Virus record (IMG/VR): IMGVR_UViG_3300028299_000032 | Location: 1 to 21,902 of that record | Strand: one strand, 5' to 3' | Source: a virus | Length of the DNA stretch: 21,902 nucleotides | Shown here: positions 1,243 to 21,446 of the stretch, piece by piece | Numbering within the stretch: the stretch's first letter is position 1 | How the letters are laid out: every line of letters begins with the position of its first letter | The notes under the pieces: model-generated | What the model was told of the DNA's origin: nothing | The model's database searches: none | What the model saw: the letters and a program-made list of their open reading frames with translations, nothing else | Made by a program: the position numbers and the translations under genes

Positions 1243-1335
1243 ATGCCAAATCGTCAAGTGTTAACTAAAAATAGAAAGGAGACTCTAGATGGAATGTCAG
1301 GTGACGAGGATGAAAGAGCAACTAGAAGAAGTTAA
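1243..1335 (+). CDS. Possible 30-aa basic peptide upstream of polymerase
   Basis: A short frame starting six bases after the preceding stop and ending inside the polymerase gene. The peptide is strongly charged (MPNRQVLTKNRKET at the start, DEDERATRRS at the end). It would overlap the polymerase by 26 to 47 bases, depending on whether the polymerase starts at 1310 or 1289. The AAAGGAG box at 1275-1281 lies inside this frame. It could be a coupling leader peptide or a chance frame; I rate it as doubtful. Confidence 0.25.
   Translation: MPNRQVLTKNRKETLDGMSGDEDERATRRS
1275..1281 (+). promoter_or_regulatory. Shine-Dalgarno-like box before DNA polymerase
   Basis: AAAGGAG lies seven bases upstream of the ATG at 1289. 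This is one of the few clear purine-rich Shine-Dalgarno matches in a window whose other starts mostly follow A/T-rich leaders. It supports the 1289 start of the polymerase over the in-frame ATG at 1310. Confidence 0.5.
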
Positions 1336-3145
1336 TAATTTTATTAGAATCAACGAATTTGTTGGTTTTGATACAGAAACTTCTTCTATGTTGCCTTTTG
1401 ATGGTAAGTTATTAGCTGTACAAATAGGTGATTTTAATACACAATATGTTATAGATGTACAAACAATTGGGATAGATAATCTATTACCTACACTAAATTT
1501 ACTTAAAGATACTATAGTCATAGGCCATAATCTAAAGTTTGATCTTAAATGGATGCATTATCATGGAATAAAAGTAGATAAAGTATTTGATACATTTTTA
1601 GCTGAATGTTTATTAACTGCAGGCTTAGATAAAGAAAATAGACACTTATCATTACAAGCTTGTGTTAGTAACTATTTTGGAGTAAGACTTGATAAAAGTA
1701 TAAGAAGTAAGATTATCTATGAAGGATTTTCTGATAGAGTTATTAGATATTGTGCTGAAGATGTAAAGTATTTATCTCTATTAAGAAAAAGACAATTAGA
1801 AAAAATAGAAGAGTGGGAACTAGAAAAAGTAATGGACTTAGAGAATAGATTTGTTAAAGTTCTTATGCTAATGGAATATTACGGTCCCATTATTGATACT
1901 AAGAAATGGACTGAAGTATATACTTTAGTTGAAAAGACATTAGGAAAAACAGTTGAACAGCTTAATAATATTATATTACATAATGATAAGTTAAAGAAAT
2001 ATATTAATACTGAACCTCAACTAGGTTTAGAATTTCCAGATTTTAATAATAAAGTAGCTGATAAAGTACTTATTAACTGGTCTTCTCCTATTCAGAAGTT
2101 AAAACTACTACATGGATTAGATATCAATGTTAAATCTACAGAAGCTAAAGATCTTATAAGAAAGAGAGATAAACATCCTATAGTACCATTACTTATTAAA
2201 TATAGTAAATGGAACAAGCTATCTACATCATTTGGTAGAAATTTTCTTAAGTTTATTCATCCAGTTACAGGTAGAATACACCCTGATTACTTTCAAATAA
2301 TAGCCTCTGGACGTTTAAGTTGCTCTAAGCCCAACCTTTTAAACATACCGTCACATGGAGACCTTGCTAAGAAGATACAGGCTTCCTTTATACCCAAGTA
2401 TGGAAATAAGATAGTTGGCGGAGATTATAGTAATTTTGAACTACGTATTATTTCAGAATTTGCAGATGAACCATTATGGACTACAACATTTGCTGAAGAT
2501 AGGGATTTACATTCAGAATTATGCACTAGAATATTTAATATAAGAGAAGATCAAGTTAATGATCCGTTCCCACTAAAACCAGATTTTACATACCGCCATG
2601 TACAAAAAATTATAGACTTCGGTTTATCATATGGTATGACTGAATTTAAGTTAGGCGATCTCCTTGATATTCCTACCAGAGAAGCGAGGAAGTTAATAAA
2701 CAGCTTCTTTATCACCATACCAAGGGTTAAAAAGATACTATCTATCTGGGCATATGCAGCTACTTCAAGAGGATATATCAGGACTGCCCCACCTTATAGA
2801 AGAATTAGATGGTTTCCCAATTGGAATGAAGATCTATCTAAAGTAGAACCGTATCTAATATCTGCTATTGAAAGAGAAGCTAAAAACACAGTACCTCAAG
2901 GTAGTAATGCAGATTGTATTAAAGAGGCATTATGCTTAGTACAAGATGAAATTGACAATAATAACTATCCAGTTAAGATCATGCTAAGTATTTATGATGA
3001 AATTGTAACTGATTGTAAAAAAGAGTTTACAGAAGAGTGGAAAGTAATACTAGAAACATTGATGATTAAAGCTGCAAAAGAAATTCTTAAAATAACACCA
3101 GTTAAAGTTAATGTCACTATAAGTGATCATTGGATAAAAGATTGA
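1289..3145 (+). CDS. Family A DNA polymerase with 3'-5' exonuclease domain
   Basis: A 618-residue replicative polymerase of the PolI/T7 type. The N-terminal exonuclease shows Exo I (FDTET, D28/E30), Exo II (GHNLKFD, N81/D85) and Exo III (YCAED, Y154/D158), so proofreading should be active. The polymerase half has motif A GGDYSNFELR (D379), motif B as RHVQKIIDFGLSYG (R436, K440, Y448), and motif C IYDEI (D570/E571). Motif C carries Tyr569 where most family members have His. There is no 5' nuclease domain, as is usual for phage enzymes. The start at 1289 follows an AAAGGAG box; M8 at 1310 is possible. Neighbouring helicases and primase indicate that it is the phage's own replicase. Confidence 0.95.
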   Translation: MECQVTRMKEQLEEVNNFIRINEFVGFDTETSSMLPFDGKLLAVQIGDFNTQYVIDVQTIGIDNLLPTLNLLKDTIVIGHNLKFDLKWMHYHGIKVDKVFDTFLAECLLTAGLDKENRHLSLQACVSNYFGVRLDKSIRSKIIYEGFSDRVIRYCAEDVKYLSLLRKRQLEKIEEWELEKVMDLENRFVKVLMLMEYYGPIIDTKKWTEVYTLVEKTLGKTVEQLNNIILHNDKLKKYINTEPQLGLEFPDFNNKVADKVLINWSSPIQKLKLLHGLDINVKSTEAKDLIRKRDKHPIVPLLIKYSKWNKLSTSFGRNFLKFIHPVTGRIHPDYFQIIASGRLSCSKPNLLNIPSHGDLAKKIQASFIPKYGNKIVGGDYSNFELRIISEFADEPLWTTTFAEDRDLHSELCTRIFNIREDQVNDPFPLKPDFTYRHVQKIIDFGLSYGMTEFKLGDLLDIPTREARKLINSFFITIPRVKKILSIWAYAATSRGYIRTAPPYRRIRWFPNWNEDLSKVEPYLISAIEREAKNTVPQGSNADCIKEALCLVQDEIDNNNYPVKIMLSIYDEIVTDCKKEFTEEWKVILETLMIKAAKEILKITPVKVNVTISDHWIKD

Positions 3146-4265: not shown

Positions 4266-4842
4266 TGAAACATTTCACATACTTGTTAATATTTGTATAC
4301 TACTTAAAATAGATGCAAGAACTGTAATGTCTAGTAAAACTAGAGATGCTTCATTTATAAAAAATGTTCTACAATACATACTTTTTACATTATATAATAA
4401 AAATAGATTATATTTATCTTTACAATTAAAATACGGAGGAATAAATATACGTAACTCGTTTATGCGAATTAATAACTACATTTACACTAAAGATAAGAAG
4501 TACTACCCTATGCTATTGACTATTAATAAACTCTACCCAATATTAGATATTGGAGTAGCTATTTATGAACTAAAGTCATTAACTTATGGATTTACACAAA
4601 GAAACAAGTGGAGCAAACGTCAAAAAAAGAGAGTTACTCCATTACGAGCAGCGAGAATATGTAATGAAATTATTAAACTTGAAAGACAATCAGAAAAACA
4701 AGTTAAAGAAGCTATTAACAGCGATTATTTCATTACTAGTTATCGTGAGTATAGGGATTATTACAACCTCCCCTATAAATATTACAAAGGCCAAATTTCA
4801 AAACAAACTTATTCTATATTTACCAGACACATTACCAGATAA
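4258..4842 (+). CDS. Hypothetical protein with possible DnaA domain IV-like helices
   Basis: A 194-residue basic protein. Residues about 25-78 resemble the DNA-binding domain IV of DnaA. SSKTRD is followed by a helix, VLQYILFTLYN, then a SLQLKYGG segment where DnaA has its SLxxIGxxFGG turn, and IRNSFMRINNYI where DnaA has the recognition helix. The match is by eye and the key DHTTV stretch is not conserved, so this is a hypothesis. The C-terminal half is Lys/Arg/Tyr-rich (RQKKRVTPLRAARI). It overlaps the preceding nuclease by 8 bases, and its last 179 bases also encode the signal anchor of the next gene. It might help mark a replication origin. Confidence 0.5.
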   Translation: MDDETFHILVNICILLKIDARTVMSSKTRDASFIKNVLQYILFTLYNKNRLYLSLQLKYGGINIRNSFMRINNYIYTKDKKYYPMLLTINKLYPILDIGVAIYELKSLTYGFTQRNKWSKRQKKRVTPLRAARICNEIIKLERQSEKQVKEAINSDYFITSYREYRDYYNLPYKYYKGQISKQTYSIFTRHITR

Positions 4843-5389
4843 TTACTATATTGATATTCAAAAAGTATTTCCTAATACTTTAATCAATACATTTGCAGTT
4901 CATAATCCAAAAAAGACCTACGAAGAGTTTAAAAAGAAACTTAGGTACATAGAGTCTAGTAATAGCTACAGTAGTAGACGTACTAATAGTAATGGATCAT
5001 TATCTCAATATCTTGGTGCTTACCAAATAGGTTCTCAAATGAGGACAATAATAGGATTAGGAGATATATCTGACAGTTTATTTTTATGTACACCTTCTAT
5101 TCAGGATGCAGCTATGGACTTATGTATAATTTACAATCGTAATTTACTTAGACCATATTTAGAACAATATGAAGGTACTTTTATTGCAGGTTATCAAATG
5201 ACAGAAAGTAATATGCTAGCCATAGCACATAATGCTGGTCCGTATGGCTTAATCAATTTCTTAATATCCTATGGAGTAAATCTTCCTAGAGATAGTAACG
5301 GTATATCTTACGAGTTTATGAAATTAAGTGGCTATAAAATAACACCACATGGGAACAACAACAAATCTTCAACAGCAACTAGACGCTAG
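4664..5389 (+). CDS. Membrane-anchored lytic transglycosylase-like protein
   Basis: With the ATG at 4664 this is a 241-residue protein opening with a basic n-region (KDNQKNKLKK) and a hydrophobic segment at about 17-38 (LLTAIISLLVIVSIGII), i.e. an uncleaved signal anchor or signal peptide. The exported part has a lysozyme-like/SLT pattern: YIESSNSY with candidate catalytic Glu97, LGAYQIG (118-123, GxYQ-type), and AIAHNAGPYG (186-194, AxNAG-type). These are hallmarks of soluble lytic transglycosylase folds that cut peptidoglycan. An earlier in-frame ATG at 4586 would put 26 polar residues before the anchor and is less likely. It could serve in cell lysis or local wall opening; its place within replication genes is unusual. 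Confidence 0.7.
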   Translation: MKLLNLKDNQKNKLKKLLTAIISLLVIVSIGIITTSPINITKAKFQNKLILYLPDTLPDNYYIDIQKVFPNTLINTFAVHNPKKTYEEFKKKLRYIESSNSYSSRRTNSNGSLSQYLGAYQIGSQMRTIIGLGDISDSLFLCTPSIQDAAMDLCIIYNRNLLRPYLEQYEGTFIAGYQMTESNMLAIAHNAGPYGLINFLISYGVNLPRDSNGISYEFMKLSGYKITPHGNNNKSSTATRR

Positions 5390-5669: not shown

Positions 5670-6927
5670 AGAACAAGTTCAGAATGAAGCTCTGAATACA
5701 TTAAAACTATTTAGTGGAATAGGTTCATTGATAATGGATACTGGGGTAGGTAAAAGTAAAGTTGCAATAGACTTTATTATTGATGATCCAAATATACAAA
5801 CAGTATTAATTACATCTCCTAGAGAGAATCTAAAGGCTAACTGGTATAATGAAATAATATTATGGAGTAATTCTGTTGGTATATTCGCAGAAAGTGATCT
5901 TGAACCTAATACTATTCCATTTATGATGGGTGATAAAATAGTATTAGTAACTTTTGAAAATATACAAACTTGTTACAGATGGGAAAATAGACATTTTGAC
6001 ATGGTTATTGCTGACGAGGTACATTGCTGCATGACCTCAGAATATTCCAGAATATTCCTCAACAACGACTTTACATATAAAGTAGGACTAACTGCCACCT
6101 CTGATATAAAAGGTAAACCAGAGAAGCTAGAGCTATATAATTTGTACTGTCCTATCATTTATACTTTTCTAACTGCTGAAGAATATGGAGTAGTGAATAA
6201 GACCAAAATCATTGTAGTAGATCATATTCTGAATAATGTGCATAAAATTCACATTAAGACAAAAAAACATGACTTTTTTCTTGGAGAACAGGAAAGATAT
6301 TCGTATATTTGCAAAGAGTTCAGACGAGGACAGAGTTTGATGGCTTCAACAGGAAGTACAAACTATTTTGAAGATGCTGATTACTGGTTCTGGAAAGGGA
6401 ATGGAACACCAAATCAAAAAGAAGCAGCTAGAGTTTATCTAAAAGCAGTTCAGAATAGAAAGTACTTTCTGCTGAGGCTTACTTCCACAAAACAAATTGC
6501 TATTAAACTTAGTGAACAATTAACACAGGTTAATGGTAATAAAGTGCTTGTATTCAGTGAGCTTACTGAACAAATTGACAGTATTTGTACACATACAGTA
6601 CATAGTAAGCATAAGAATGATATTAATGCGCAAACTTTACAGAGATTTAATGATGGTGACATAAAAGTACTAGGTTCATGTTATTCCTTAACTTTGGGAC
6701 TTAACATGAAAGCTGTTAATATCGCTATCTTTGAATCATATTTAAGTAGTTTTACAAAAGCTAAACAAAGAAGAGGAAGATTAAATAGATTAATTGCAGA
6801 TGAAGAAATAGCAACACTTTACATAATTAGACTTCCTAACACTCAAGCAGAAACTTGGTTTAACGGATTTGTTGACAAAGACGAAATAAGCGAAGTAATA
6901 AAGTCGGAGGACATCTTAAAAGAGTAG
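5662..6927 (+). CDS. Superfamily 2 (SNF2/DEAD-like) helicase
   Basis: A 421-residue SF2 ATPase. It shows a Q-like entry, Walker A DTGVGKS (26-32), motif Ia TSPRENLKANW, the DExH box ADEVH (117-121), motif III GLTATSD (about 142-148), and in the second RecA lobe VLVFSEL, SLTLGLNMKAVN and the arginine-finger motif QRRGRLNR (about 369-376). Helicases of this type occur in crAss-like phages and many others and remodel DNA or act as annealing/branch-migration helicases. An upstream in-frame ATG at 5566 would lie deep in the previous gene; the ATG at 5662 overlaps that gene's stop by 8 bases and is preferred. It likely acts with the polymerase and DnaB-like helicase. Confidence 0.9.
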   Translation: MNREQVQNEALNTLKLFSGIGSLIMDTGVGKSKVAIDFIIDDPNIQTVLITSPRENLKANWYNEIILWSNSVGIFAESDLEPNTIPFMMGDKIVLVTFENIQTCYRWENRHFDMVIADEVHCCMTSEYSRIFLNNDFTYKVGLTATSDIKGKPEKLELYNLYCPIIYTFLTAEEYGVVNKTKIIVVDHILNNVHKIHIKTKKHDFFLGEQERYSYICKEFRRGQSLMASTGSTNYFEDADYWFWKGNGTPNQKEAARVYLKAVQNRKYFLLRLTSTKQIAIKLSEQLTQVNGNKVLVFSELTEQIDSICTHTVHSKHKNDINAQTLQRFNDGDIKVLGSCYSLTLGLNMKAVNIAIFESYLSSFTKAKQRRGRLNRLIADEEIATLYIIRLPNTQAETWFNGFVDKDEISEVIKSEDILKE

Positions 6928-7142: not shown

Positions 7143-7797
7143 TAGTATATTTATAAATATAACCAAATTAATTAAAAGCCAATTAGGCTTACTTGAATTC
7201 TGTGTACTACAATTAATCCAAGATAAGAATTTTAAAACATTAGATTTACTACTAAATAATCAAATAGAATTAAGAGAGATAGAAAATTGTCAGTCTTTAT
7301 CTGATTTTGCTCCAAATGATGAGGTTATAGGAGAACAAGTAAGTAACCTTATAAGAGATTTGGAAAATAGTGGTTGGATAAAGATTACAGGAGATGATCT
7401 ACTTAAAAATCTAGAAATTAGACAGAAGTTTATTGAGCTAGTTGAATCTAATGATCTTGTTAATAGAATTGATGATGTAGAAAAATGGTACCAAGAGTAC
7501 CGAGATTTATTTAAAGTTATTCCAGGTGCCAGAGTTGGTATCATGGGTAGTAGACAAGCTGTTATTGACAGACTAAGAAGATTTTTAAAAGAACATCCAC
7601 AAGTTACAAAAGAACAAGTTTTACAAGGAACTAGAAGGTACATCGCTACAGAGTCTCCTAAGTATGTGATGAATGCTGAGTATTTTCTATATAAACAGGA
7701 TCAGTTTGATAAGACTACTAGGTCTAAGTTGGAAGCTGTTTTAGAAGATTTCTCAGAGAGAATCCCCAATGACTACGATCAAACTAGAAATATTTAG
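7135..7797 (+). CDS. Replication-operon protein, possible helicase loader
   Basis: A 220-residue protein with no motif I can name for certain. The N-terminal part is helical and acidic. The middle (residues about 80-115) resembles a winged-helix turn (NLIRDLENSGWIKIT). The C-terminal part is a conserved-looking helical domain (YREL-like YRDLFKVIPGARVG, then RQAVIDRLRRFLKEHP, TKEQVLQGTRRYIA, KYVMNAEYFLYKQ). This last region recalls C-terminal domains of phage replisome organisers and helicase loaders, and the gene sits immediately before the DnaB-like helicase, the usual place for a loader. Function is inferred mainly from position. Confidence 0.5.
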   Translation: MDSSIFINITKLIKSQLGLLEFCVLQLIQDKNFKTLDLLLNNQIELREIENCQSLSDFAPNDEVIGEQVSNLIRDLENSGWIKITGDDLLKNLEIRQKFIELVESNDLVNRIDDVEKWYQEYRDLFKVIPGARVGIMGSRQAVIDRLRRFLKEHPQVTKEQVLQGTRRYIATESPKYVMNAEYFLYKQDQFDKTTRSKLEAVLEDFSERIPNDYDQTRNI

Positions 7798-7798
7798 T

Positions 7799-8950
7799 AT
7801 GGCTCATTTTAGACATACTTTAGATGTTATAGAAAGGGGTATGACAGGCGGCAATGAAGGCTTGTCACACGGTTTATCCAGAATCAGTTATTTTGTTCCC
7901 GGTGTTCAGAAGGGAAACATCTATTTAATAGGTGGAGTAACTGGTTCTGGTAAAAGTGCCTTAGCTATGGATATGTTTGCTTGTAATCCATATGATGACT
8001 ACCTACTAAGAAGCACTACTTCTCCTGAAAATCCTATTAAGTTAAAAATATTTATTTGGTCATTAGAGATAAGTCCAGAAATATTATTAGCTAAAATGAT
8101 TTGTAGGAAAATGTTTTTGCAACATGGTATACTAACTGATATTAATTATATATTGTCAAGGGGAAAGAATAGAGTATCTGCAGAGATATACGATCTAGTA
8201 AAATCTTACGCACATTATTACGAAGAATTTGAAGATAGAGTTATAATAAACGGGGCAGATAATCCTACTGGAATCCGTAACACTTTATTAGAATATTTAA
8301 AAGCACACGGAAATATAGAAGAGAAGATTATTACTATAAAAAATAGAAATCATGATACTGGAGAAATAACAGAAAGTAATCGACCTATTTTTGGAAGGTA
8401 TAAACCGGATCATGATAATACCTATATTATAGTAATAGTTGATCATGTTAACATATTAAAAAAGGAACAAAGATTTAGTAAGAAAGAAACTGTTGATAAA
8501 TTAATGGAGTATATGATGGACATGTCGAATAAATATAAGATTACTCCAATAATAGTACAACAACTTAACAGGAATATTGAACTAGTAGATAGGATGAAAA
8601 TGTCTTCTATTGAACCTCAAATATCAGACTTTAAGGAAACATCAGATTCAACAGATGCTGCTCATTTCATATTTGGAATGAGTTATCCTCAAAGATGGGA
8701 AATAGGTTCATATAGAGGTTATGACTTAACCAAATTAGGTAATAGGTTCAGAGGTCTTAAGCTATTAAAGAATCGGGATGGTAATGCAGATGTACTTGTA
8801 GGTCTTAAATTTTTAGGAGAGATAGGTACATTTAAAGAGTTACCTCCGGGCAAGGAAATGTCTGAGCAAGATTACATTAATATACAATCAATAACTAAAA
8901 GCTATGACCATAGTATTACCAACAACAGTATCAGAGTCCAAGCTAACTAA
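7799..8950 (+). CDS. DnaB-like replicative helicase
   Basis: A 383-residue RecA-fold ATPase without the DnaB N-terminal collar domain. It has Walker A GGVTGSGKS (45-53), a SLEIS segment matching DnaB motif H1a (FSLEMS), Walker B VIVDHVNIL, and a VQQLNR sensor segment followed by DFKETSDSTDAAHFIFG, which matches the DnaB L2 loop and H4 region. This makes it a hexameric 5'-3' helicase for the phage fork. The ATG at 7799 starts one base after the previous stop and gives MAHFRHTL; a start at 7769 would overlap and add ten residues. It is followed, with a 47-base overlap, by a Sak4-like ATPase. Confidence 0.88.
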   Translation: MAHFRHTLDVIERGMTGGNEGLSHGLSRISYFVPGVQKGNIYLIGGVTGSGKSALAMDMFACNPYDDYLLRSTTSPENPIKLKIFIWSLEISPEILLAKMICRKMFLQHGILTDINYILSRGKNRVSAEIYDLVKSYAHYYEEFEDRVIINGADNPTGIRNTLLEYLKAHGNIEEKIITIKNRNHDTGEITESNRPIFGRYKPDHDNTYIIVIVDHVNILKKEQRFSKKETVDKLMEYMMDMSNKYKITPIIVQQLNRNIELVDRMKMSSIEPQISDFKETSDSTDAAHFIFGMSYPQRWEIGSYRGYDLTKLGNRFRGLKLLKNRDGNADVLVGLKFLGEIGTFKELPPGKEMSEQDYINIQSITKSYDHSITNNSIRVQAN

Positions 8951-10001: not shown

Positions 10002-10835
10002 ATGGCGATAAAAGGAAATGTTGGAAACGTAGAGGTAGCAAAGGACATAAAACTGTATACAGGAATTGTTGGTGCACAAGTACTAGCTATTAATCCTAGT
10101 TTGGAAGAGATAAACTCGTTTGGTGTAAACTTTCAAAATGCTATAACATATACCGATGTTAATAATGACGGTAATGAAAGAGTAAGGATTGATGTATGGT
10201 TTAAGTGCACTACACCAGATTCAGATGTAGCTGCTACTAATCCAGGTCTAAAAGACATACAAAATCTTGTTACTAAAGTAAGTTTCTTCCTTTCCAACAG
10301 ATTTAAAACTACTAACGAAGGAACTAAACTAGGTTTTATTAACAATTTTGGCCAGAATGCATGGGCTGAAATTATACCAGATGCTACAGAACCTAATTTA
10401 CCTTCTGAATCGTGGTTTAGAACAGAAGGAATACGTCAAGCATATGACGGAGAAGATGTTCTTATCAACTTTATTCGTAATTGGGTAAATGCTGGTAAGA
10501 ATGATGAGATGTCTCTTGATAATGTTAAGGATATAATTCTCGGTAAATTTGGAGAATTACAATCACTTGTTCCAACTTATAAGAACAATGTGGTCAGAAT
10601 TATGCTTACTGTTGTAGTTAAAGATAATAAATATTATCAATCAGCCTACAATAGATTTTTTGCTCGTTGGAATCATACAAGCCCACTTATCTGGCGTAAG
10701 TATATTCAACAAGATAAGTATAATAAGCCAAAAGGACCGTGGAGTTATGTTTTAACAGAATATAAACCAACGGATATGCCGGTAGTTGAAGAGGTACCGG
10801 ATGAGGAAGTCCAAGCTCAGTCCAATAAATGGTAA
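10002..10835 (+). CDS. Probable ssDNA-binding protein
   Basis: A 277-residue soluble protein. The N-terminal half contains strands separated by charged turns (YTDVNNDGNERVRIDVWFKC; KVSFFLSNRFK), compatible with an OB-fold. The central region (NVVRIMLTVVVKDNKYYQ) is again strand-like, and the C terminus is acidic and probably flexible (PVVEEVPDEEVQAQSNKW). Size, tail and position between a Sak4-like ATPase and the primase fit a phage single-stranded DNA-binding protein. Proteins beginning like this are known to me from phages with crAss-like gene content, but the SSB role is inference from architecture and context, not from a catalytic motif. Confidence 0.5.
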   Translation: MAIKGNVGNVEVAKDIKLYTGIVGAQVLAINPSLEEINSFGVNFQNAITYTDVNNDGNERVRIDVWFKCTTPDSDVAATNPGLKDIQNLVTKVSFFLSNRFKTTNEGTKLGFINNFGQNAWAEIIPDATEPNLPSESWFRTEGIRQAYDGEDVLINFIRNWVNAGKNDEMSLDNVKDIILGKFGELQSLVPTYKNNVVRIMLTVVVKDNKYYQSAYNRFFARWNHTSPLIWRKYIQQDKYNKPKGPWSYVLTEYKPTDMPVVEEVPDEEVQAQSNKW

Positions 10836-10841
10836 TTTACC

Positions 10842-11819
10842 ATGATACAAGGACACTCTCAAATAAGAAAGAGTGATATATTAGCAGTAACTAGTGAGGA
10901 AGAGTTATTCAAGAAGTACTGTAATAATTTTGAATATATCAACGTATCATTTAAGAGTGAACTGAGAGAGGACAAAACCCCCAGTTGCAGGATAGCTGAT
11001 CTAGGTAGCGGTTTACGCTATAAAGACTTTGGATCAGCTATACCTGCAACTGATGTTTGGGGCTATGTGATGTTAAAGTTTGGACTAAATTTCCCAGAAG
11101 CACTAGAAAAAATAGCTACTGACTTATATATCACTAGTACTACTGGTATTATAATAGAACCAGTACTACAAAAATCCTATCCTAAACCACCTAGAAAACA
11201 TCTTCTTATTAAAAGAAGAGATTGGCTATTATCAGACAAAGAGTTTTGGTATAATAGATATAACATTACAAAAGAATTATTGAATAGTTATTGTGTTAAA
11301 CCTATAGATTACTACTGGTTTAATGGTACTGTGTTTAGAGTTCTAAAACATGCCTATTCTTATGATTATTATTGGAATGAAGGAGTCTTCTTAAGAAAAA
11401 TATATCAGCCTTATTCACATAAAAATAAATGGATATCTAATGTAGATACCACCATAGTACAAGGCATTGATAATATACCTAAATTAGCTCCGTTATTAGT
11501 TATATCTTCATCTTTAAAAGACGTGATGTGCTTAAAACTATTAGACTATAATGCTGTCGCTCCTAATAATGAAAGAAGTTGGCTACCAGCTATGGTTTGG
11601 AAAAAGTTTAAAAAGAGGTATAAAAAAATAGTTATACTATTTGATAATGATGAAACAGGTCTAGAATCAGCCTCTAATTTTTCTAAACAATATAGTATAG
11701 ATTACAAATATATTCCACTCTCATTTACTAGACAAAATAAGAATATAAGTGATTTTATTTATAATCACTCGTTAAAAGAAGCTAAACTATTAATGAATAG
11801 TTTATTTAATCAGTTATGA
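10842..11819 (+). CDS. DnaG-like primase
   Basis: A 325-residue primase. Residues about 35-95 match the DnaG N-terminal domain fold (SFKSELREDKTPSCRI, then YKDFGS, then DVWGYVMLKFGLNFPEAL). The usual CHC2 zinc ligands are missing; only Cys27 and Cys49 are nearby. The TOPRIM metal motif is IVILFDNDETG (D268, D270), and the upstream strand LLVISSSLKDVMCL stands where TOPRIM proteins carry their E-G-x-x-D signature, with SLKD replacing EGxxD. This variant layout is typical of phage primases working with a separate DnaB-like helicase. The start is six bases after the preceding gene; the stop overlaps the next start (ATGA). Confidence 0.85.
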   Translation: MIQGHSQIRKSDILAVTSEEELFKKYCNNFEYINVSFKSELREDKTPSCRIADLGSGLRYKDFGSAIPATDVWGYVMLKFGLNFPEALEKIATDLYITSTTGIIIEPVLQKSYPKPPRKHLLIKRRDWLLSDKEFWYNRYNITKELLNSYCVKPIDYYWFNGTVFRVLKHAYSYDYYWNEGVFLRKIYQPYSHKNKWISNVDTTIVQGIDNIPKLAPLLVISSSLKDVMCLKLLDYNAVAPNNERSWLPAMVWKKFKKRYKKIVILFDNDETGLESASNFSKQYSIDYKYIPLSFTRQNKNISDFIYNHSLKEAKLLMNSLFNQL

Positions 11820-11994: not shown

Positions 11995-12438
11995 ATGAAC
12001 GAAAGAAAAATCACTGTTGCCTCAACAAAGGCAAACAAACCTGTGACATTTAAAAGTGCTGCAGCAACATGGGGCGATCTTAAGAATGAGTTAAGCTCCA
12101 ACAATGTCGAGTTTAATGATAAGATGAACGCTGTATTGAAAAATACCAGAACTAATCTTGTTCTTGATGACGCTGTATTACCTGAAGAGGATATAATTAT
12201 CTTCTTAATGGCAAAGAAGATGAAGTCAGGTACTGCTAAAAAATCTACAGCTAAAAAGGCTCCGGCAAAGAAGTCCACTGCAAAAAAGCCAGCTAAGAAA
12301 GCTCCAGCCAAATCTGCAACTAAGGTTAAAGCTAAACCTGCTCCTAAAAAGAAGACTGTAGTTAAGAAAGTTTCAAAGGCTGATGAAGCTTTAATGAAAG
12401 AAGCTACTGAGATGGAGTCTAAGCTTAAAAGAATGTGA
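11995..12438 (+). CDS. Ubiquitin-like beta-grasp protein with histone-H1-like tail
   Basis: A 147-residue, three-part protein. Residues 1-76 read as a beta-grasp ubiquitin-like domain: strand KITVAS, strand KPVTFKS, helix TWGDLKNELSS, a loop with strands, then TNLVLDDAVLPEEDIIIFLM, the pattern of Ubl proteins in prokaryotic E1/E2/JAB operons such as PRTRC protein C. It is followed by KKMKSG (74-79), a possible C-terminal processing point after Gly79. Residues 81-127 are Lys/Ala/Pro repeats (AKKSTAKKAPAKK type) like a histone H1 tail, likely to bind DNA. Residues 128-147 form an acidic/basic helix (DEALMKEATEMESKLKRM). The E2-like, JAB and E1-like genes lie just downstream. Whether it is conjugated or acts as a DNA-bound tag is unknown. 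Confidence 0.72.
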   Translation: MNERKITVASTKANKPVTFKSAAATWGDLKNELSSNNVEFNDKMNAVLKNTRTNLVLDDAVLPEEDIIIFLMAKKMKSGTAKKSTAKKAPAKKSTAKKPAKKAPAKSATKVKAKPAPKKKTVVKKVSKADEALMKEATEMESKLKRM

Positions 12439-12440
12439 TT

Positions 12441-12617
12441 ATGGACTCCAAAGCCGCTGAAATAGGAGTATGGCTTATCGTTATTGTTATCTTAATTACT
12501 ATAGGAATTATTTTTTATTTTAGGTTCAAAAAGAGTAAATTTAACTCTGAGCCTAAGTTAACAGAAGAAGAGTTACGTCTAATGGAAGAGGCTAAATCTT
12601 TGGAAGATAGGCTTTAA
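12441..12617 (+). CDS. Single-pass membrane peptide with shared C-terminal motif
   Basis: A 58-residue protein starting two bases after the Ubl-like stop. Residues 8-27 (IGVWLIVIVILITIGIIFYF) form one transmembrane helix, followed by a positive RFKKSK stop-transfer, so the C terminus should be cytosolic. The C terminus EEELRLMEEAKSLEDRL repeats the pattern of the last residues of the upstream Ubl-like protein (LMxEAxx[ML]ExxxL). A GTG at 12435 is an alternative start. The pairing suggests a membrane partner or adaptor for the Ubl system; this is inference. Confidence 0.65.
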   Translation: MDSKAAEIGVWLIVIVILITIGIIFYFRFKKSKFNSEPKLTEEELRLMEEAKSLEDRL

Positions 12618-12643
12618 AATAATCAGTTCTTCCAATAATATAG

Positions 12644-12676
12644 AGAAGGGGTAGGTACATACTTACCCTTTCTTTT
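12644..12676 (+). terminator. Rho-independent terminator between Ubl and E2 genes
   Basis: A 13-bp stem (AGAAGGGGTAGGT pairing with ACTTACCCTTTCT, two G-U wobbles) closes on a four-base ACAT loop and runs into TTTT before AAAA. It is the best terminator-like hairpin in the window. The E2-like start codon lies only 15 bases further on, so downstream genes must be transcribed by read-through or from a promoter overlapping the hairpin. It may set the Ubl/membrane-peptide pair at a higher level than the enzymes. Confidence 0.75.
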
Positions 12677-12690
12677 AAAATTCTAGTATA

Positions 12691-14148
12691 ATGAGCCAAG
12701 AAATAGAACGAGAAGCAGAATTTGATCAGAGTGAATATGAAATGCTTGAGAATATGCTGTTAGCAAATAAGATACATGATGAAGTTATAACAGAAGTTAA
12801 AACTGAGATTAAAGAAATAGTATCTGCTAAACCTATTATTAATCATTATAAAAGGTTTAAATTTGATGAAGCAGCAGTAACTCCTGATACCAATAGAATT
12901 TTAATTGATTTTTGTACGCATTTAGATAAGTTAGGTGAATTAAATTATTTACCAAATGAAAAACATATTATAAACTACATACAATTTTTACAAAGTGCTT
13001 TAAGTTTAGATTCTATCTATTATAGTACAATGATGAAAACTTTAGCAATGTTTATGATTGTTTTTGACACTTATTATAAAGATAGATGGGATTTAATAAC
13101 TCTAGATTCGTATAATAGAATAGGTATAGCAGCTTATTATCCCGAATTTGTAATAGAAGATAGTGACGGTGAAACACATACTATAAAAGATTTATACGGC
13201 ATATATAAGTTTTCTGGATCTACTTATACTGAATTAGAGATATTATATACTAGAATTACTATAACAGAAGAAGAAGCATCATCTAATTACTTCTTTTCTC
13301 ATGGCAATTTTCCTAGTAACAGAATGATGAATGGAGGATATTATGGTAAAGTATGTGCTGGTTCTGGAGAAATAAAGACTATGATGGGACAAGTTCCTTC
13401 TCTAACAAGTCAAGATAGTCTTACTATAGAATTTGTTACACTTCTGGCTTTACAGTTAGAAGAGTTTTTTAAGTATGAGTACATCCCCGGCAGCCCTATG
13501 AAGAATATTCAAGCAATTGGATTTGGTGGACATTTTTCAGTACCTAATTTATTAGAAAACCATTTTCTAAAAGAATTTGTAGATAAAATTAGTTTAATAC
13601 CCGGAATAGCAGTTAAAAATTCTTATTTTGGGCTTATATCATATTTACCTAATATAAATAAAGAGTTATTTGCTAGGTTAATAGAATTTACGTATGTACC
13701 TAAATGTTTTTTAGATACTAATGATAATAGTTATTTTAATTCAAGTAATCCTATAATAGCAAATAATTCTGATGCTTTTAGATTTAAAGGTAATTTAATG
13801 ATTATTTTTAGAGAAGAACAGAAGTATTTAAAAATAATAAAAGAGGAATCTAAACAAGTTGTAATACTTACTCAAACAATTCATCCTGCAACTTTACGTT
13901 TAATACATGATCTAATTAACAAATTGTTATTTATACATTCAATACGAAATTCTTATGACAAAAAACCAGTCAAAAAACGAAAAGCGAAATTGGGCACTGA
14001 ACAGACCAGTAATCTCTTCAGAAGAAGGAGAGCAGTTACTCTTAACTCACAAAGCATTGTCAGGGAGAACCCCACAAGCGGGACAATATCCATTTCAGGA
14101 CAAGACTACGTATTCCAAACCCAAACTGTCTCCGCCAGTACGACATAA
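12691..14148 (+). CDS. E2-like ubiquitin-conjugating protein, large form
   Basis: A 485-residue protein in the position of the PRTRC protein B / prokaryotic E2 family D gene. The acidic helical N terminus (1-50) precedes a globular part. At 204-224 the sequence HGNFPSNRMMNGGYYGKVCA places an HxN motif ahead of G-K-V-C222-A-G, the same order as the HPN...GxxC signature of E2 enzymes, with a longer spacer (N206 to C222). C222 is the predicted thioester cysteine. A second domain (about 245-450) is unassigned. The last 65 residues are Arg/Lys-rich and then Ser/Thr-rich and are encoded in the region shared with the JAB gene. E2 assignment rests on motif plus operon context. It would receive the activated Ubl from the E1-like protein and pass it on. 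Confidence 0.55.
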   Translation: MSQEIEREAEFDQSEYEMLENMLLANKIHDEVITEVKTEIKEIVSAKPIINHYKRFKFDEAAVTPDTNRILIDFCTHLDKLGELNYLPNEKHIINYIQFLQSALSLDSIYYSTMMKTLAMFMIVFDTYYKDRWDLITLDSYNRIGIAAYYPEFVIEDSDGETHTIKDLYGIYKFSGSTYTELEILYTRITITEEEASSNYFFSHGNFPSNRMMNGGYYGKVCAGSGEIKTMMGQVPSLTSQDSLTIEFVTLLALQLEEFFKYEYIPGSPMKNIQAIGFGGHFSVPNLLENHFLKEFVDKISLIPGIAVKNSYFGLISYLPNINKELFARLIEFTYVPKCFLDTNDNSYFNSSNPIIANNSDAFRFKGNLMIIFREEQKYLKIIKEESKQVVILTQTIHPATLRLIHDLINKLLFIHSIRNSYDKKPVKKRKAKLGTEQTSNLFRRRRAVTLNSQSIVRENPTSGTISISGQDYVFQTQTVSASTT

Positions 14149-15271
14149 TGTAGTTGAAATGGATGGAGCTAGATTAACTATTTGTAATGAAGCTCAAAAA
14201 CAAATAGACTATCTATTAAATAAGTTTCCTTCTACTGAATGGTCTGGTATTATGGTTTGGGATGTAATAGAAGGTAGTCTTCAAGACCCAGCTACTTTAT
14301 TAGTAGAGGTTAAGTATATACTATTAATGGATATTGGTTCTGCAGCTTATACTGAATATGAAACTGAAGCTGAACTTACATTAGATCTCTATGATGAATA
14401 TCCAGATGCAATGTTAATGAGGATAGGACATTGCCATAGTCACCATAGCATGCAAGCTTACTTTAGTAGTACAGATACTCAAGAGTTGCATGATAATGTA
14501 GATAAACATGTAGCATACCTATCTCTTATTGTCAGTTCAAAATCAAAATATGTTGCTAAAATGGCAGCTTTATCTATTGACGAAACTAGACATATAGTTA
14601 AAGATTTCGATGATAGTGAAGCTGTAGCAATTTCAGAATCTAAAAGCATGATTATTTATAATGTAGATATTATAGGTCAGGAACAAAAGAGATTTGAAGA
14701 TACAGTAATTGATGCTAGAATAGATAAAGTTACAAAATTTTCAAGTACTAAAAGTAAAAGTAAGAATAAAAGTTATTCACCACATAATACTGATTACTAT
14801 GACAGAGTTTATAATTTTGGTTCTCACAATGCGGAACAACAGATGGAAATGTTTAAAGATACTGAACCTGTAGATAAGGAATTTGTTAATGGTATAGAAT
14901 GTATATTGTATCTAACTATTCCCCCACTCGAAATACATAGATTATTAAAAAGATTGCTTGGTATTAATGCGGAGGCTAATTTATCTGTTGAGGTAAAGGC
15001 TATGGATTTAATTCAAGGGTCAGCTTTAATGGATGAACTAGCAGATACATTTGAAGAAGAAATACTACATACAGTAAATTTACTCTATATTAAAGATGAT
15101 GCGATTATTAGTAATTTATTATTGTCGTCTGATGTTATCATGTATATAGTTTTAACTAAATTAAAAGCATCAGCTGAAACAAGTATGCCTGAAGGGCAGA
15201 CTAAAGACATAACTTTACAAACATTTAACTATTTATTAACAAGTTTTATTTGCGATGGAAACAAGGACTAA
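13955..15271 (+). CDS. JAB/JAMM metallopeptidase (Ubl isopeptidase)
   Basis: A 438-residue protein with a complete JAMM zinc-protease core. Glu95 (TEWSGI) is the general base, and GHCHSHHSMQAYFSSTD gives H161-x-H163-x7-S171-x2-D174, exactly HxHx7Sx2D. Such enzymes cut peptide or isopeptide bonds after the C-terminal glycine of ubiquitin-like proteins. The domain occupies about 70-215; a C-terminal extension of over 200 residues follows, including a Ser/Lys linker (SSTKSKSKNKSYS) and helical regions of unknown fold. The start at 13955 overlaps the E2-like gene by 194 bases; an in-frame ATG at 14159, eleven bases after that gene's stop, gives a 370-residue protein still containing the whole JAB domain. 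I list the longer form, but the start is uncertain. Confidence 0.88.
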   Translation: MTKNQSKNEKRNWALNRPVISSEEGEQLLLTHKALSGRTPQAGQYPFQDKTTYSKPKLSPPVRHNVVEMDGARLTICNEAQKQIDYLLNKFPSTEWSGIMVWDVIEGSLQDPATLLVEVKYILLMDIGSAAYTEYETEAELTLDLYDEYPDAMLMRIGHCHSHHSMQAYFSSTDTQELHDNVDKHVAYLSLIVSSKSKYVAKMAALSIDETRHIVKDFDDSEAVAISESKSMIIYNVDIIGQEQKRFEDTVIDARIDKVTKFSSTKSKSKNKSYSPHNTDYYDRVYNFGSHNAEQQMEMFKDTEPVDKEFVNGIECILYLTIPPLEIHRLLKRLLGINAEANLSVEVKAMDLIQGSALMDELADTFEEEILHTVNLLYIKDDAIISNLLLSSDVIMYIVLTKLKASAETSMPEGQTKDITLQTFNYLLTSFICDGNKD

Positions 15272-16046
15272 GATAAAAACTGATAACATTGCTGCAGATA
15301 CTAGTAGTAGATTTTCAGGATTCAGTTGGGCAGATAAAGATATTATCAAGAGTCTAAGTCCTATAACTGTTGTAGGTGCTGGCGGTATAGGCTCTTGGTT
15401 TACTCTTTTAGCTAGTAGAGTAGGATATAAAATAGTCATCTATGATAATGATATCGTAGAAAGACATAATATAGGAGGACAACTTTATTATACTAAAAGT
15501 ATTATGCGAAAAAAGGTAGATACATTATCTCGTATTATACAAGATTTTAGTCCACAAGGGGAAGTTTTACCAGTAGATGTTTTTGTAGACGAAAATACCC
15601 TTATTAATACTAAAATAATAATATCTGCTGTTGATAACATGAAGGCTAGAAACATTATTTATAATTCTTTTACCAATCATTTACAAGAAGCATTTAATGA
15701 TGGATATACAATTTCTGAAAACGGATTATATCTTGAACATAGTGATGGATATAATTTAGCATGTCTTTTTATAGATGGTAGATTACTTGCAGAGCAGTTT
15801 CAAGTATATGCTGTAACTCCTAAATCATTAAGTAGATATGCTGAAACACTATTTTCCGATGATGAACTGGAAGAAGAAGCATGTTCTATTAAACAAACTA
15901 GTCATTTTGCTGCTGGAATAGCTTTTAATATGATTAGAGTGCTTAATAACTATGTAGCTAACTTTATTGATCCTGATTGTGGAAGAGAGGTTCCTTTTAG
16001 TATTATAGATGACGGGTTATTAATAATGCCAACTATTGAATTATGA
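15255..16046 (+). CDS. ThiF/E1-like adenylating enzyme
   Basis: A 263-residue ThiF/MoeB/E1-type protein. ATP binding is marked by VVGAGGIGSW (39-48), then the acidic YDNDIVERHN (D64/D66), Lys87 in RKKVD, and the Mg/adenylate site SAVDNMKAR (D127, N128, R132). The usual NLNRQ stretch reads NIGGQ, so its arginine is replaced by Gly75. DGRLLAEQ (174-180) matches a conserved E1-like loop. Cys210 (EEEACSIKQ) is the best candidate for a catalytic cysteine. It would adenylate the C terminus of the Ubl and hand it to the E2-like protein. It overlaps the JAB gene by 17 bases and the next gene by 4 (ATGA), so expression is coupled. Confidence 0.88.
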   Translation: METRTKIKTDNIAADTSSRFSGFSWADKDIIKSLSPITVVGAGGIGSWFTLLASRVGYKIVIYDNDIVERHNIGGQLYYTKSIMRKKVDTLSRIIQDFSPQGEVLPVDVFVDENTLINTKIIISAVDNMKARNIIYNSFTNHLQEAFNDGYTISENGLYLEHSDGYNLACLFIDGRLLAEQFQVYAVTPKSLSRYAETLFSDDELEEEACSIKQTSHFAAGIAFNMIRVLNNYVANFIDPDCGREVPFSIIDDGLLIMPTIEL

Positions 16047-17059: not shown

Positions 17060-18154
17060 ATGACTAGAGAAGAATATGATAGTGTAGATGCTATTAATTA
17101 TAGTACTCTATCAAAGATGCACGATGATCCTAAGAAGCTACTATTACCTCCATCCAAGCCAGGTAGAGGTAGATTAATGGGTAGTACTATTGACTGTTTA
17201 ATATTTTCTGGACAGGAGTTTAACGACAGATTTTTTATATCTGAAGCTAAGTTACCAGCTGAGAAAATGTTAGCAATGTTAGAACGTTATTTAGAATTAA
17301 CAGGAAACGATTTTTTACCAATTAATGAAAATATGGTAATGGCTGCTAGAACAGATGTAGAGTTTGCTATGAACTGGGGACGTTCTACAGTCATTACCAA
17401 ATTTGAGGAAGCTTGCTTTGATTATTTAAGTGAACTTATTGTTGCGGGAAACAGATTAGTTATTGACAAAAGAATAAAAGAAACTTGTGACCAAATAGCT
17501 ACTGAAGTATTAACTAATAAGTTTACCTATGATGTTATAACAAGAGGTGATATAGTTCTTAATCAACCAACATTTATATGGAATCAAAAAATTGATGATA
17601 GCGAGGGAAAAGAAATTACAGTAAAATGTAAAGGTATTGCTGATAATATTACAGTACGAGATTTAGATAAAGAAACAGTACTTGTTTACATAAACGACGG
17701 TAAATATTCTTCACAAGGTTGGAAAACATTTGAAAAAGATTTCGTAAATTGGAATTATCATTTACAACCACCAATGTATATATTAGCAGTTAACAGTTTA
17801 GTTAATGGGACGAATGAATATTGCGAAGAACCTTTGAAAGATATATTAAGAGGTAAAAAAGTAATGATATTTTTTAGATTTATAATTTATACTGAAGGTA
17901 ATTTACCATTAATTTATACACTACCATCAGATTTAATTACATTAGGATTTTATGGAGGAACTTTATATAACGGTGCAAGAAAAAAAGGAATTAACAGACT
18001 TATTGTTGATTATTTACGTCATAAAGCTTTAGAGTATTATGACTATCCGTGGGATATTTATGATAATGCAGGTACACTTGATCTAAGTATTCCATGTTCA
18101 GTTAATAGACCATTACAAATTAAACCTCAGACAACACAATCAGAAGACAAATAA
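17060..18154 (+). CDS. Cas4/RecE-type PD-(D/E)XK exonuclease
   Basis: A 364-residue nuclease of the PDDEXK_1/RecB family. It opens with INYSTLSKMHDDPKKLL, the typical substrate-entry motif of RecE-like exonucleases (S-xx-L-K). The helix GRLMGSTIDCLIF stands where these enzymes carry their conserved Gly-x-x-x-His, with Asp in place of His. Further on come D195 (KGIADNI), the D213-G-K215 catalytic pair, and YHLQPPMY giving the Q236-xxx-Y240 motif. It probably resects DNA ends to produce single strands for the Sak4-like annealing ATPase and the SSB-like protein encoded upstream. It starts 12 bases after the unknown Ubl-operon gene. Confidence 0.8.
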   Translation: MTREEYDSVDAINYSTLSKMHDDPKKLLLPPSKPGRGRLMGSTIDCLIFSGQEFNDRFFISEAKLPAEKMLAMLERYLELTGNDFLPINENMVMAARTDVEFAMNWGRSTVITKFEEACFDYLSELIVAGNRLVIDKRIKETCDQIATEVLTNKFTYDVITRGDIVLNQPTFIWNQKIDDSEGKEITVKCKGIADNITVRDLDKETVLVYINDGKYSSQGWKTFEKDFVNWNYHLQPPMYILAVNSLVNGTNEYCEEPLKDILRGKKVMIFFRFIIYTEGNLPLIYTLPSDLITLGFYGGTLYNGARKKGINRLIVDYLRHKALEYYDYPWDIYDNAGTLDLSIPCSVNRPLQIKPQTTQSEDK

Positions 18155-18156
18155 TT

Positions 18157-18993
18157 ATGATAGCAAAAAGGACTGTAAACTTACAAGACGGGCGTTTGTT
18201 AATATTAGAAGCAATTAATGCTAGACATGTTAAACTTTACACTAACTCAAACAACTTACAGACTTTTGTATCTTCTGAACATAGTAGAAATTCTATTATT
18301 AGACTTGATATTAATAATGAGTTTATAATAGATTTACTTGATCCTGATTTATCTAAACTGCATTTTAATATTACAAATACATTTATAGCAAACTATTATT
18401 TAACAAAGATAATTAAATCAGGATTATCTACTTACTTATTAGAAACAATGCCTAGAACTGTTAGTTCATTCTTTATTCCGCCTATAGTAGTTCCATCTAA
18501 AGATTGGTTAGATTGGAATAGATTGTTTTGTAATGCTTATTTTGTTAAAATAAAACAACCTAAAGAAAGATATTATGTTGGCCTTATGTTTAGATTTTTA
18601 CCTACAGATGCCTATCATAACCTTGAATCCAAGCTAATTAAATTATCAACATTCTTTAAACACTATCCTTGGGATTATGACTATGAACTATTTACGTTTG
18701 TGGTTAATGAAAGTCAATCTAATGATCTAAATCTACTACTTGATAGTAAATATTCAAGAGTATCAGAATCATATAAAGCTAAGATTTTATACTTTAATAA
18801 GTTTTCTGCTACTGGAGACATGGCTAAAATCCTATGTAAGCATCCTGATAGAAGACGTCAGCTAGAATTAGATTTAGAATGTGAGATAAATGAAGAAACA
18901 GAACTATTTGAAGCAGTTGATTTAGAAAAAGAGCTTTTAATTATAACAGATAATGTTTTACAAAAACTTGGTAGAGTGGGTCAGCTAACATAG
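18157..18993 (+). CDS. Hypothetical protein, 278 aa
   Basis: Not recognised. The N-terminal third is strand-rich (RTVNLQDGRLLILEAINARH), the middle contains aromatic-rich segments (SKDWLDWNRLFCNAYFVKIK), and the C terminus is strongly acidic and helical (LECEINEETELFEAVDLEKE). It starts two bases after the nuclease stop. Its stop codon TAG lies in the loop of a terminator-like hairpin, so it is probably the last gene of a transcription unit. No membrane segment or catalytic motif is seen. Confidence 0.65.
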   Translation: MIAKRTVNLQDGRLLILEAINARHVKLYTNSNNLQTFVSSEHSRNSIIRLDINNEFIIDLLDPDLSKLHFNITNTFIANYYLTKIIKSGLSTYLLETMPRTVSSFFIPPIVVPSKDWLDWNRLFCNAYFVKIKQPKERYYVGLMFRFLPTDAYHNLESKLIKLSTFFKHYPWDYDYELFTFVVNESQSNDLNLLLDSKYSRVSESYKAKILYFNKFSATGDMAKILCKHPDRRRQLELDLECEINEETELFEAVDLEKELLIITDNVLQKLGRVGQLT

Positions 18994-19022: not shown

Positions 19023-19298
19023 ATGGAACGTGAAAATATATTATGCTATGATGTTAATAGTACACCTGTAGGATGGGCATTACAAGATGTATTTATAACA
19101 ATGTCTGAAAGTAATGTTTTATTTTATCAGGAACATAAACTAGGCTATCCGCCTTCTTCTAAACCATATATATTAAATGCTTATAAAAATGAAGTAGTTA
19201 TTATTGATATAACTACTGAAGAAGGTAAACTAATACTAAAAAAGACAGAAGATGCTAGACAACGATCAAATAATACTATTCAAGAAAGTACTGGGTAA
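19023..19298 (+). CDS. Hypothetical protein, 91 aa
   Basis: A small soluble protein with strand-like segments (ENILCYDVNSTPVGWALQDV; NEVVIIDITTEEGKLILKK) and no recognised motif. It is the first gene after the terminator-like hairpin, with an A/T-rich leader (AATAAATAAACT) before its ATG. It overlaps the glycosylase gene by 47 bases, which suggests they are co-expressed. Confidence 0.6.
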   Translation: MERENILCYDVNSTPVGWALQDVFITMSESNVLFYQEHKLGYPPSSKPYILNAYKNEVVIIDITTEEGKLILKKTEDARQRSNNTIQESTG

Positions 19299-19956
19299 TG
19301 CATGGTATATAGCATTAGAGAAGACTTTAAATACAAAAGAGTTCTCTAATTTAGCTAAATTCATTAATTATGAAAGAACTAAATATACCATTTATCCTGA
19401 GAATATGGAAACTATTTTTCGTGCTTTTACATTGACTTCTCTTTCAGATATACTTGTAATAATTTTAGGACAAACACCGTATCACAATGGAAGGTATGAT
19501 GGTTTGGCATTTTCAAATGGTGGTCAGAAACATCCTTCTCCCTCTCTCCTTAACATTTTGGTTGAGGTAGAAACCCAGATATATCAAAATCATAAAGACC
19601 TTCTCTCAGAGCCTTATTTCGATCTTTCCAGATGGGCAAAGCAGGGAGTTCTTTTACTAAATACAGCTTTAACAGTAAGGAAAGGTGAACCTGAATCACA
19701 TATAGAACAATGGGAATTTTTTACAGCAGAAGTAATGAAAGCTTTAGGTAGACATCATTCTGGTTTAATCTATATGTTATGGGGTAAGCATGCCAAAAGT
19801 TATATTAAGTTTATAGATAGAGATAGAAATTATATCTTAACTTGTGGACATCCTGTAACTAAGCATTACGGTAATGATCTATGGTCTAATAATGGACACT
19901 TTGCTGAAGCTAATAGAATATTAAAGAGTATTAATAATAGGCGAATTAAATGGTAA
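19252..19956 (+). CDS. Family 1 uracil-DNA glycosylase homologue with altered active site
   Basis: A 234-residue protein that aligns by eye along UNG. LVIILGQTPYHNGRYDGLAFS (69-88) matches the water-activating loop, followed by HPSPSLLNIL (94-103), VLLLNTALTVRKGEPESH (133-150, with the uracil-binding Asn137), and CGHP (198-201, with His200). Two features are unusual. The catalytic Asp of GQDPYH is Thr75, and the intercalation loop HPSPLS is HPVTKHYGN. The Phe and Asn of the base pocket are kept. Family knowledge says the Asp is needed for efficient uracil excision, so this protein may be weak, altered in specificity, or used to bind rather than cut uracil DNA. The first ATG overlaps the upstream gene by 47 bases. 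Confidence 0.88.
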   Translation: MLDNDQIILFKKVLGNAWYIALEKTLNTKEFSNLAKFINYERTKYTIYPENMETIFRAFTLTSLSDILVIILGQTPYHNGRYDGLAFSNGGQKHPSPSLLNILVEVETQIYQNHKDLLSEPYFDLSRWAKQGVLLLNTALTVRKGEPESHIEQWEFFTAEVMKALGRHHSGLIYMLWGKHAKSYIKFIDRDRNYILTCGHPVTKHYGNDLWSNNGHFAEANRILKSINNRRIKW

Positions 19957-20309: not shown

Positions 20310-21446
20310 ATGAAAACAAGCGTAGTCCTAGGATTAGGTTACGGGGATGAAGGTAAGGGAGTAGTAGTAAACTCCCTTGCCTCACAATCATCTTCAGCCT
20401 TAGTAATTAGATTTTCTGGAGGTCATCAATGTGGTCACACAGTTATACATGATAATGTACGTCACATATTTAGTAATTTTGGTTCTGGCACTTTAGTAGA
20501 TATTCCTACTTATTGGTCTAGATATTGTACTATAAATCCTACATCCATAGTCAGGGAATATGAAATACTTGTTAAAAAAGGTATTAAGCCTATACTGTTT
20601 ATTGATAGAGACTGTCCTATTATAATACCTATGGACATAGCAAGTAACCAGCTTCATACAAATTATTTTAGGAATGGTACTGTAGGTGTTGGTTTTGGTG
20701 CTGCTATAGAAAGAAATGAAAAAGGTTATAGGTTAGTAGCATCAGATATGTTAGATAAGACTTTATTTCGTACAAAATTGTCTAATATAAATGAAAGATG
20801 TTACGATAGAACATGGGAAGAAAAAGAGTTTTTAGCTGATGTAGAAACTTTAAATAACTTAAGTACTGTTACTATAATTAATGATATAAATAAATTACCT
20901 ATCACAAATACTACGCATATTATTTGCGAAGGCTCACAAGGTATTTTGTTAGATCAGACTTTTGGATTTTTTCCTTATGTAACAAGAGCTAATACTACTA
21001 GTCAAAATATGTGGGAACTATTTAAGCAGTTACCAATTAACTATAGTGATATTAATATATACTATGTAACTAGATGCTATCAAACTAGACACGGTAACGG
21101 GCCAATGTTTCCATCTATCCCACTAGATCAAGCACACGCTATTGTAGATTTTACTAATGTGACTAATCCTTATCAAGGAGTATTAAGAATGAGTTCGTTA
21201 TCTGGAAGTGCTTTAAATTATGCTTTAGACTGTGACGCTAGATTTATCTCTTCAATAGTAAAGAAAAAACTTGTTATAACATGTATAGATCAAATTGAAT
21301 CTCCATTTGTTTCATGGAAAGGTACAAAATATCAGTTAGAACCTTTTTTAAAGTCTGTATTAATGAAGAAATACAATTTTACTAATATCTATCAATGTAA
21401 TTCGCCTAACGGTAATATAACTGAATTAACATATCAACCTTTTTAA
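20310..21446 (+). CDS. Adenylosuccinate synthetase (PurA) homologue
   Basis: A 378-residue PurA-family enzyme, shorter than the usual 420-430. Present are the GTP-binding start LGLGYGDEGKG (7-17) with the catalytic Asp13 kept, GGHQCGHT (37-44) with catalytic His43, EGSQGILLDQTFGFFPYVTR (207-226), and YQTRHGNGP (257-264). In PurZ of 2-aminoadenine phages the Asp is replaced by Ser or Gly, so this looks PurA-like. The guanine-recognition motif, normally T-K-L-D, reads TCID (324-327), so nucleotide preference may differ. The enzyme would convert IMP plus aspartate to adenylosuccinate, supplying adenine nucleotides for an AT-rich genome. No purB-like gene is visible here. Confidence 0.88.
   Translation: MKTSVVLGLGYGDEGKGVVVNSLASQSSSALVIRFSGGHQCGHTVIHDNVRHIFSNFGSGTLVDIPTYWSRYCTINPTSIVREYEILVKKGIKPILFIDRDCPIIIPMDIASNQLHTNYFRNGTVGVGFGAAIERNEKGYRLVASDMLDKTLFRTKLSNINERCYDRTWEEKEFLADVETLNNLSTVTIINDINKLPITNTTHIICEGSQGILLDQTFGFFPYVTRANTTSQNMWELFKQLPINYSDINIYYVTRCYQTRHGNGPMFPSIPLDQAHAIVDFTNVTNPYQGVLRMSSLSGSALNYALDCDARFISSIVKKKLVITCIDQIESPFVSWKGTKYQLEPFLKSVLMKKYNFTNIYQCNSPNGNITELTYQPF

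Follow-up and report, generated by a model that had tools for sequence, protein, structure and literature searches.

A uracil-DNA glycosylase homologue with threonine at the catalytic aspartate position in a crAss-like phage replication module

Uracil excision by Ung relies on an aspartate that positions the attacking water and a histidine that stabilises the leaving uracil (PMC5387724). The DNA analysed here encodes an Ung homologue in which threonine stands at the position of that aspartate, which raises the question of whether such a protein still cuts uracil from DNA and, if it does not, why a phage would keep it.

A family-1 Ung homologue among crAss-like replication genes

The window, by which we mean the whole 21,902-base stretch analysed, is an IMG/VR virus record and a fragment covering the replication region. 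The best named relatives of its PolA and DnaB are crAss-like phages, and many crAss-like phages are found among the matches of its uracil-DNA glycosylase (UDG), a gene common in this group. By these similarities the gene set is assigned to a crAss-like replication module (Table 1). In many relatives a homologue of the exonuclease-like protein lies near UDG, and the possible single-stranded DNA-binding protein of the module likewise co-occurs with UDG in many of them.

Table 1. Replication-module genes of the window and motifs of the Ung homologue
Feature	Position	Strand	Basis or remark
DNA polymerase A	1289..3145	+	Best phage matches crAss-like; the module's polymerase, candidate partner
DnaB-type replicative helicase	7769..8950	+	crAss-like
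Conserved crAss-like replication-module protein, possibly ssDNA-binding	10002..10835	+	No PHROG match
Toprim primase	10842..11819	+	
PD-(D/E)XK exonuclease-like protein, upstream of UDG	17060..18154	+	Weak similarity, 21-28%; no Pfam match
Unknown protein	18157..18993	+	Precedes UDG in several relatives (L017, L104, L107)
Family-1 uracil-DNA glycosylase (Ung) homologue, 234 aa, Thr75 for catalytic Asp	19252..19956	+	Profile, sequence, model
Water-activating motif GQTPYH (GQDPYH in Ung)	19468..19485	+	GGA CAA ACA CCG TAT CAC, in frame
Thr75 codon ACA	19474-19476	+	At water-activating Asp position
Uracil-recognition motif VLLLNT	19648..19665	+	Asn137 (E. coli N123) unchanged
HPVTKHYGN loop	19849..19875	+	Catalytic His200 kept, intercalating Leu absent
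Adenylosuccinate synthetase, PurA-type	20310..21446	+	GDEGKG Asp kept; not PurZ

The 234-residue protein scores 186.8 bits against the Ung profile NCBIfam NF003592 (cut-off 162), matches the Pfam UDG domain and matches human and E. coli UNG with phmmer E-values of ~1e-35 to 1e-36 at ~37% identity. The start of its open reading frame is supported by the homologue in viral record L017, which aligns from Met1. An AlphaFold model of the protein has a pLDDT of 95.8 and a pTM of 0.92, and its VIA-align superposition on DNA-bound human UNG gives a Z score of 31.8 at 1.4 Å over 217 residues. Foldseek was also run on the model, and Z scores to family-1 Ung (E. coli, human) are ~30-32. Profile, alignment and model together identify a family-1 Ung homologue with an intact predicted fold.

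Other genes of the window have features of their own. The nearest named relatives of the PurA-type protein are in Rhizobium, Vibrio and Mycobacterium phages, with a 40%-identical copy in L017. In phage PurZ the catalytic Asp of PurA is replaced by Ser (PMC12884076); the window protein reads GYGDEGKG, and a link to Z-DNA (2-aminoadenine) through this gene was rejected because the PurA-type Asp is kept. A cassette at 11995-16046 encodes a small lysine/alanine-tailed protein whose first part is ubiquitin-like by eye only, a 485-residue unknown protein, a JAB-domain protein and a ThiF/E1 protein. PRTRC-system A and ThiF models match it weakly, and homologues of parts of it lie near UDG in L016, L017, L029 and L012. 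The open reading frames of the 485-residue protein (12691-14148) and the JAB protein (13955-15271) overlap by 194 bases (13955-14148), each in its own frame. The overlap may be genuine, or translation of the JAB protein may begin further downstream. The product of 4586-5389 resembles a lytic transglycosylase or lysozyme by eye, with a membrane segment near its start, and its reading frame overlaps the preceding one by ~250 bases.

Residue 75 in the window protein and its relatives

Motif 1 of family-1 Ung, GQDPYH with the water-activating Asp, reads GQTPYH in the window protein, in an unambiguous alignment. A preliminary description of this DNA had reported this motif with Thr75 encoded by ACA, and we confirm the reading in frame within the 234-residue ORF; Asn137 and His200, which it described as retained, are both present in the translation. 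The uracil pocket is kept throughout (Gln74, Tyr77, Phe87, Asn137 within LLLN, and His200, the catalytic His of HPSPLS). Conservation across 91 Asp-bearing phage homologues reaches at least 97% at 20 positions. Of these, 19 are intact in the window protein and D75T is the sole departure, which argues against chance. The preliminary description had also allowed for a sequencing error. ACA differs from both Asp codons, GAT and GAC, at all three bases, so that a miscall is very unlikely, as is a frameshift given the intact frame.

The same description had drawn attention to the intercalation loop, where HPSPLS is changed to HPVTKHYGN. The change itself is present and the intercalating Leu is absent, yet its value as evidence does not hold up, since the Leu is kept by only 21 of 157 Asp-bearing relatives (absent in 136) and is likewise missing from the active vaccinia D4 (PMC1936997). 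L015 and L104, both with Asp, moreover share part of HPVTKHYGN, and the interpretation of this loop as a mark of lost function was rejected.

Scans of viral contigs with three alignments, combined with phage records, gave a set of 171 non-redundant homologues; initial single-protein scans with UDG and with PurA had found no relatives. Residue 75 is Asp in 157 of the 171, Glu, Gly and Gln in three each, Lys in two, and Thr, His and Asn in one each. Thr occurs in the window only, which answers in the negative the earlier question of whether it is fixed among relatives. The sister sequence L104 (tree support 97, 45% identical) has Asp, as does L017, whose record is partly syntenic with the window (JAB, ThiF, exonuclease and the PurA copy), and L104 remained the nearest relative after a final scan directed at close kin. 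Scans for the GQTPYH pattern, in which an Ile was required two positions ahead of the Gly and which may overlook very near records, returned six matches in viral_contigs and 23 in 84,980 cellular species genomes, none of them Ung. Fixation of Thr in a clade is refuted by the Asp of L104 and L017 and by these pattern scans, and the comparisons identify Thr75 as a lineage-specific change, found in one virus, rather than a family trait. Three near-identical contigs from other samples (L095-L097) cover the first part of the window and end before the UDG gene, so the window holds the only sequence of it. The possibility that the virus has an additional, intact UDG was also considered; none was found in any record searched, many of these being fragments.

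Repeated loss of the aspartate across related phages is a stronger result than the single Thr75 change, and lends weight to it. Columns 75 and 200 were left out when the tree of the homologues was built. On that tree at least 10 changes fall in the Asp column, the highest number among 24 near-invariant columns (G73 7, T141 6, F56 5); the count is approximate, as the tree was made quickly and many of its forks are weakly supported. P49, G84, G178 and P201, which lie outside every search pattern, show no change. Two scans used patterns that covered position 75 with Asp or a few other residues, so that non-Asp forms are if anything under-sampled; the perfect conservation of Asn137 is partly built in, as this residue stood in a search pattern and nearby residues were partly fixed too.

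The losses are scattered over the tree and fall into two main groups. In the window protein, L105, L109, L127 and L199 the Asp is lost, sometimes with a neighbour, and the other catalytic residues are intact. In Cellulophaga phage phi14:2, L069, L144 and the L160/L164/L165/L186 clade further changes accompany the loss, mostly at His200 and in the pocket, while L192 and L215 have other changes and keep the His. Four non-Asp cases seen in single contigs lie one base from Asp and could be errors (L127, L199, L144, L215). The lineages independent of such contigs are the window, L109 (a two-base change), the Lys/Gln clade (several contigs), L069 (two contigs) and phi14:2 (an isolate); L105, with Glu, is one base from Asp yet also has the adjacent change Q74N. 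Every one of the 157 Asp rows keeps His200, whereas 7 of the 14 non-Asp rows have lost it, a pattern consistent with, though not proof of, loss of Asp before His. Counted by independent pairs, the coupling runs in the same direction one to two times and in the opposite direction never (p 0.5), an underpowered comparison. The non-Asp genes open to dN/dS analysis, a set that lies outside the window lineage, are under purifying selection: L105, 82-83% identical to its Asp sisters, has a dN/dS of ~0.2 against them and the Gln clade one of 0.16, so these genes are not decaying. In the literature searched we found no description of repeated Asp loss in phage Ung.

Two further sets of homologues merit mention. 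In the clade of L160, L164, L165, L186 and L192 (UDG near 6000, 5200, 700, 2800 and 6000, respectively) Asp has become Gln or Lys and Tyr has become His, and all but L192 also have His to Asp and Phe to Tyr. Its Gln members, with their purifying selection, are good targets in the search for a natural uracil-DNA reader. The Ung homologues at L130:8001-8723 and L170:6001-6663 keep the Asp and have lost the thymine-excluding Tyr (LDPD, LDPA), and are candidates for altered base specificity.

Possible roles of an Ung without its aspartate

Weak activity is to be expected of the window protein because the water-activating Asp is replaced in an otherwise intact Ung. The preliminary description had stated that changing this Asp strongly lowers family-1 activity, in agreement with the ~1000-fold drop of human UNG D145N (PMC3047565), and had proposed a binder rather than a cutter, which is the leading class of explanation here. 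The double mutant D145N/H268N of UNG, which binds but does not cleave uracil DNA, serves as a sensor for it (PMC8070346, PMC12572151), and Thr75 is expected to cripple uracil excision while leaving binding. Our preferred model, held with slightly less than even confidence, is that of a correctly folded Ung with crippled excision, kept for a non-catalytic DNA role, most likely in the phage replisome. Thr in place of the water-positioning Asp would greatly weaken excision, the pocket and the DNA-binding fold would persist, and the protein may join the replication machinery that the module encodes, as a subunit that scans DNA or acts as a scaffold. Vaccinia D4 and a gammaherpesvirus vUNG, whose replication roles need no catalytic residues, provide the parallel: vaccinia virus with D4 mutated at catalytic residues still replicates, and D4 serves as a processivity component of the polymerase (PMC2630940, PMC1936997), while MHV68 vUNG binds the polymerase and its processivity factor without its catalytic residues (PMC10312458). 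The many separate losses of the same Asp in related phages suggest that this protein is often retained for some function other than uracil excision. Weighing against a non-catalytic role, conservation of the uracil pocket would also be expected of an active enzyme.

The main rival, given that families 4 and 5 of the UDG superfamily are active without this Asp (PMC5387724), is a slow but genuine uracil-DNA glycosylase in which Thr75 or another residue positions the water. His200 and the pocket would still stabilise the leaving uracil, and the phage would tolerate or even prefer a mild enzyme that leaves fewer abasic sites in DNA under replication. We consider this unlikely, although every other catalytic residue is kept, human D145N retains ~1/1000 of its activity (PMC3047565), three other phage homologues have Gly at position 75, and family 4 UDGa has Gly or Ala here with a motif-3 Asn to place the water (PMC5387724). 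The position equivalent to that Asn, 146, is Glu in the window protein. A search across lineages for residues compensating for the Asp loss gave nothing significant in ~1100 tests, position 146 included (p = 0.018 uncorrected), and the loss of His200 as well in other non-Asp lineages points to abandoned chemistry. An improbable alternative is a uracil-DNA reader or shield that would bind but not cut uracil in phage DNA, and would either mark it or keep host Ung away from it. Retention of the pocket accords with such a protein, as do the stable binding of uracil DNA by dead UNG (PMC12572151, PMC8070346) and the group that lost both Asp and His, a natural counterpart of the D145N/H268N mutant. 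Pocket conservation is, however, partly built into the search pattern, and the 21.9-kb fragment, a minority of the genome, gives no sign of uracil-rich DNA, with no dUTPase found and no Ugi-like or dU-pathway gene noticed. Presence of dUTPase in only 3 of 18 records makes a comparison with Asp loss uninformative.

Less probable again is a gene on its way out, with uracil removal left to host Ung, catalysis no longer under selection and Thr a neutral loss. The confinement of Thr to one lineage and the scatter of Asp losses over the tree would fit such decay, whereas the full-length reading frame with its 19 of 20 strictly conserved residues, the very high confidence of the predicted fold and the purifying selection on L105 and the Gln clade argue against it. 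A glycosylase switched to another base, also raised in the preliminary description, is highly improbable. Within the UDG superfamily, proteins that carry a different residue here do act on other bases (PMC5387724), and some other non-Asp relatives change the pocket Tyr and Phe (Y77H, F87Y), but Tyr77, Phe87 and Asn137, which determine uracil specificity, are unchanged in the window protein, leaving this activity unsupported, and the Asp kept by the adjacent PurA-like protein gives no sign of 2-aminoadenine DNA.

It is conceivable, if somewhat doubtful, that the Ung of environmental crAss-like phages has repeatedly evolved into a DNA binder that does not excise uracil, as a uracil reader or replisome subunit, with Asp lost first and His after; the window protein would then stand at the first step, as an early representative of a natural 'dead Ung' class that is widespread in phages. 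Annotation gives UDG genes of crAss-like phages the name uracil-DNA glycosylase with or without the catalytic Asp. Should many have dropped the chemistry but kept the fold, the main job of UDG in crAss-like phages would not be uracil removal, and the catalysis-independent role of Ung in pox- and herpesviruses would extend to phages. L105 (Glu) and L108 (Asp), ~83% identical, provide a natural matched pair for comparison.

Relation to known Ung proteins

With E. coli Ung and human UNG the window protein shares the fold, the Gln-Pro-Tyr of motif 1, Phe87, the LLLN Asn137 and the HP with His200. It differs from them in the change of Asp64/145 to Thr, in the absent intercalating Leu and in being one residue shorter after GQxPYH. 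The UDGs of crAss-like phages (Steigviridae such as cr108_1) resemble it in their replication-module location, their altered loop after HP and ~30-35% identity, although cr108_1, cr106_1 and cr128_1 keep the Asp (GQDPYP). The UDG of Cellulophaga phage phi14:2 (KC821624), a Crassvirales isolate, also lacks the Asp (GKEPY), shares the one-residue deletion and is annotated simply as uracil-DNA glycosylase; it has Glu rather than Thr, has lost the catalytic His (EDP) and has Tyr for Phe. Vaccinia D4 and MHV68 vUNG are likewise viral family-1 Ung proteins with a role in the replication complex that needs no catalysis, and D4 also lacks the Leu loop. Both are nevertheless naturally active enzymes of animal viruses with different partners, and D4 keeps the Asp. 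The dead UNG sensor (D145N/H268N) has the identical Asp position removed and the pocket kept, as in the window protein, but is an engineered double mutant, whereas the phage protein retains its His.
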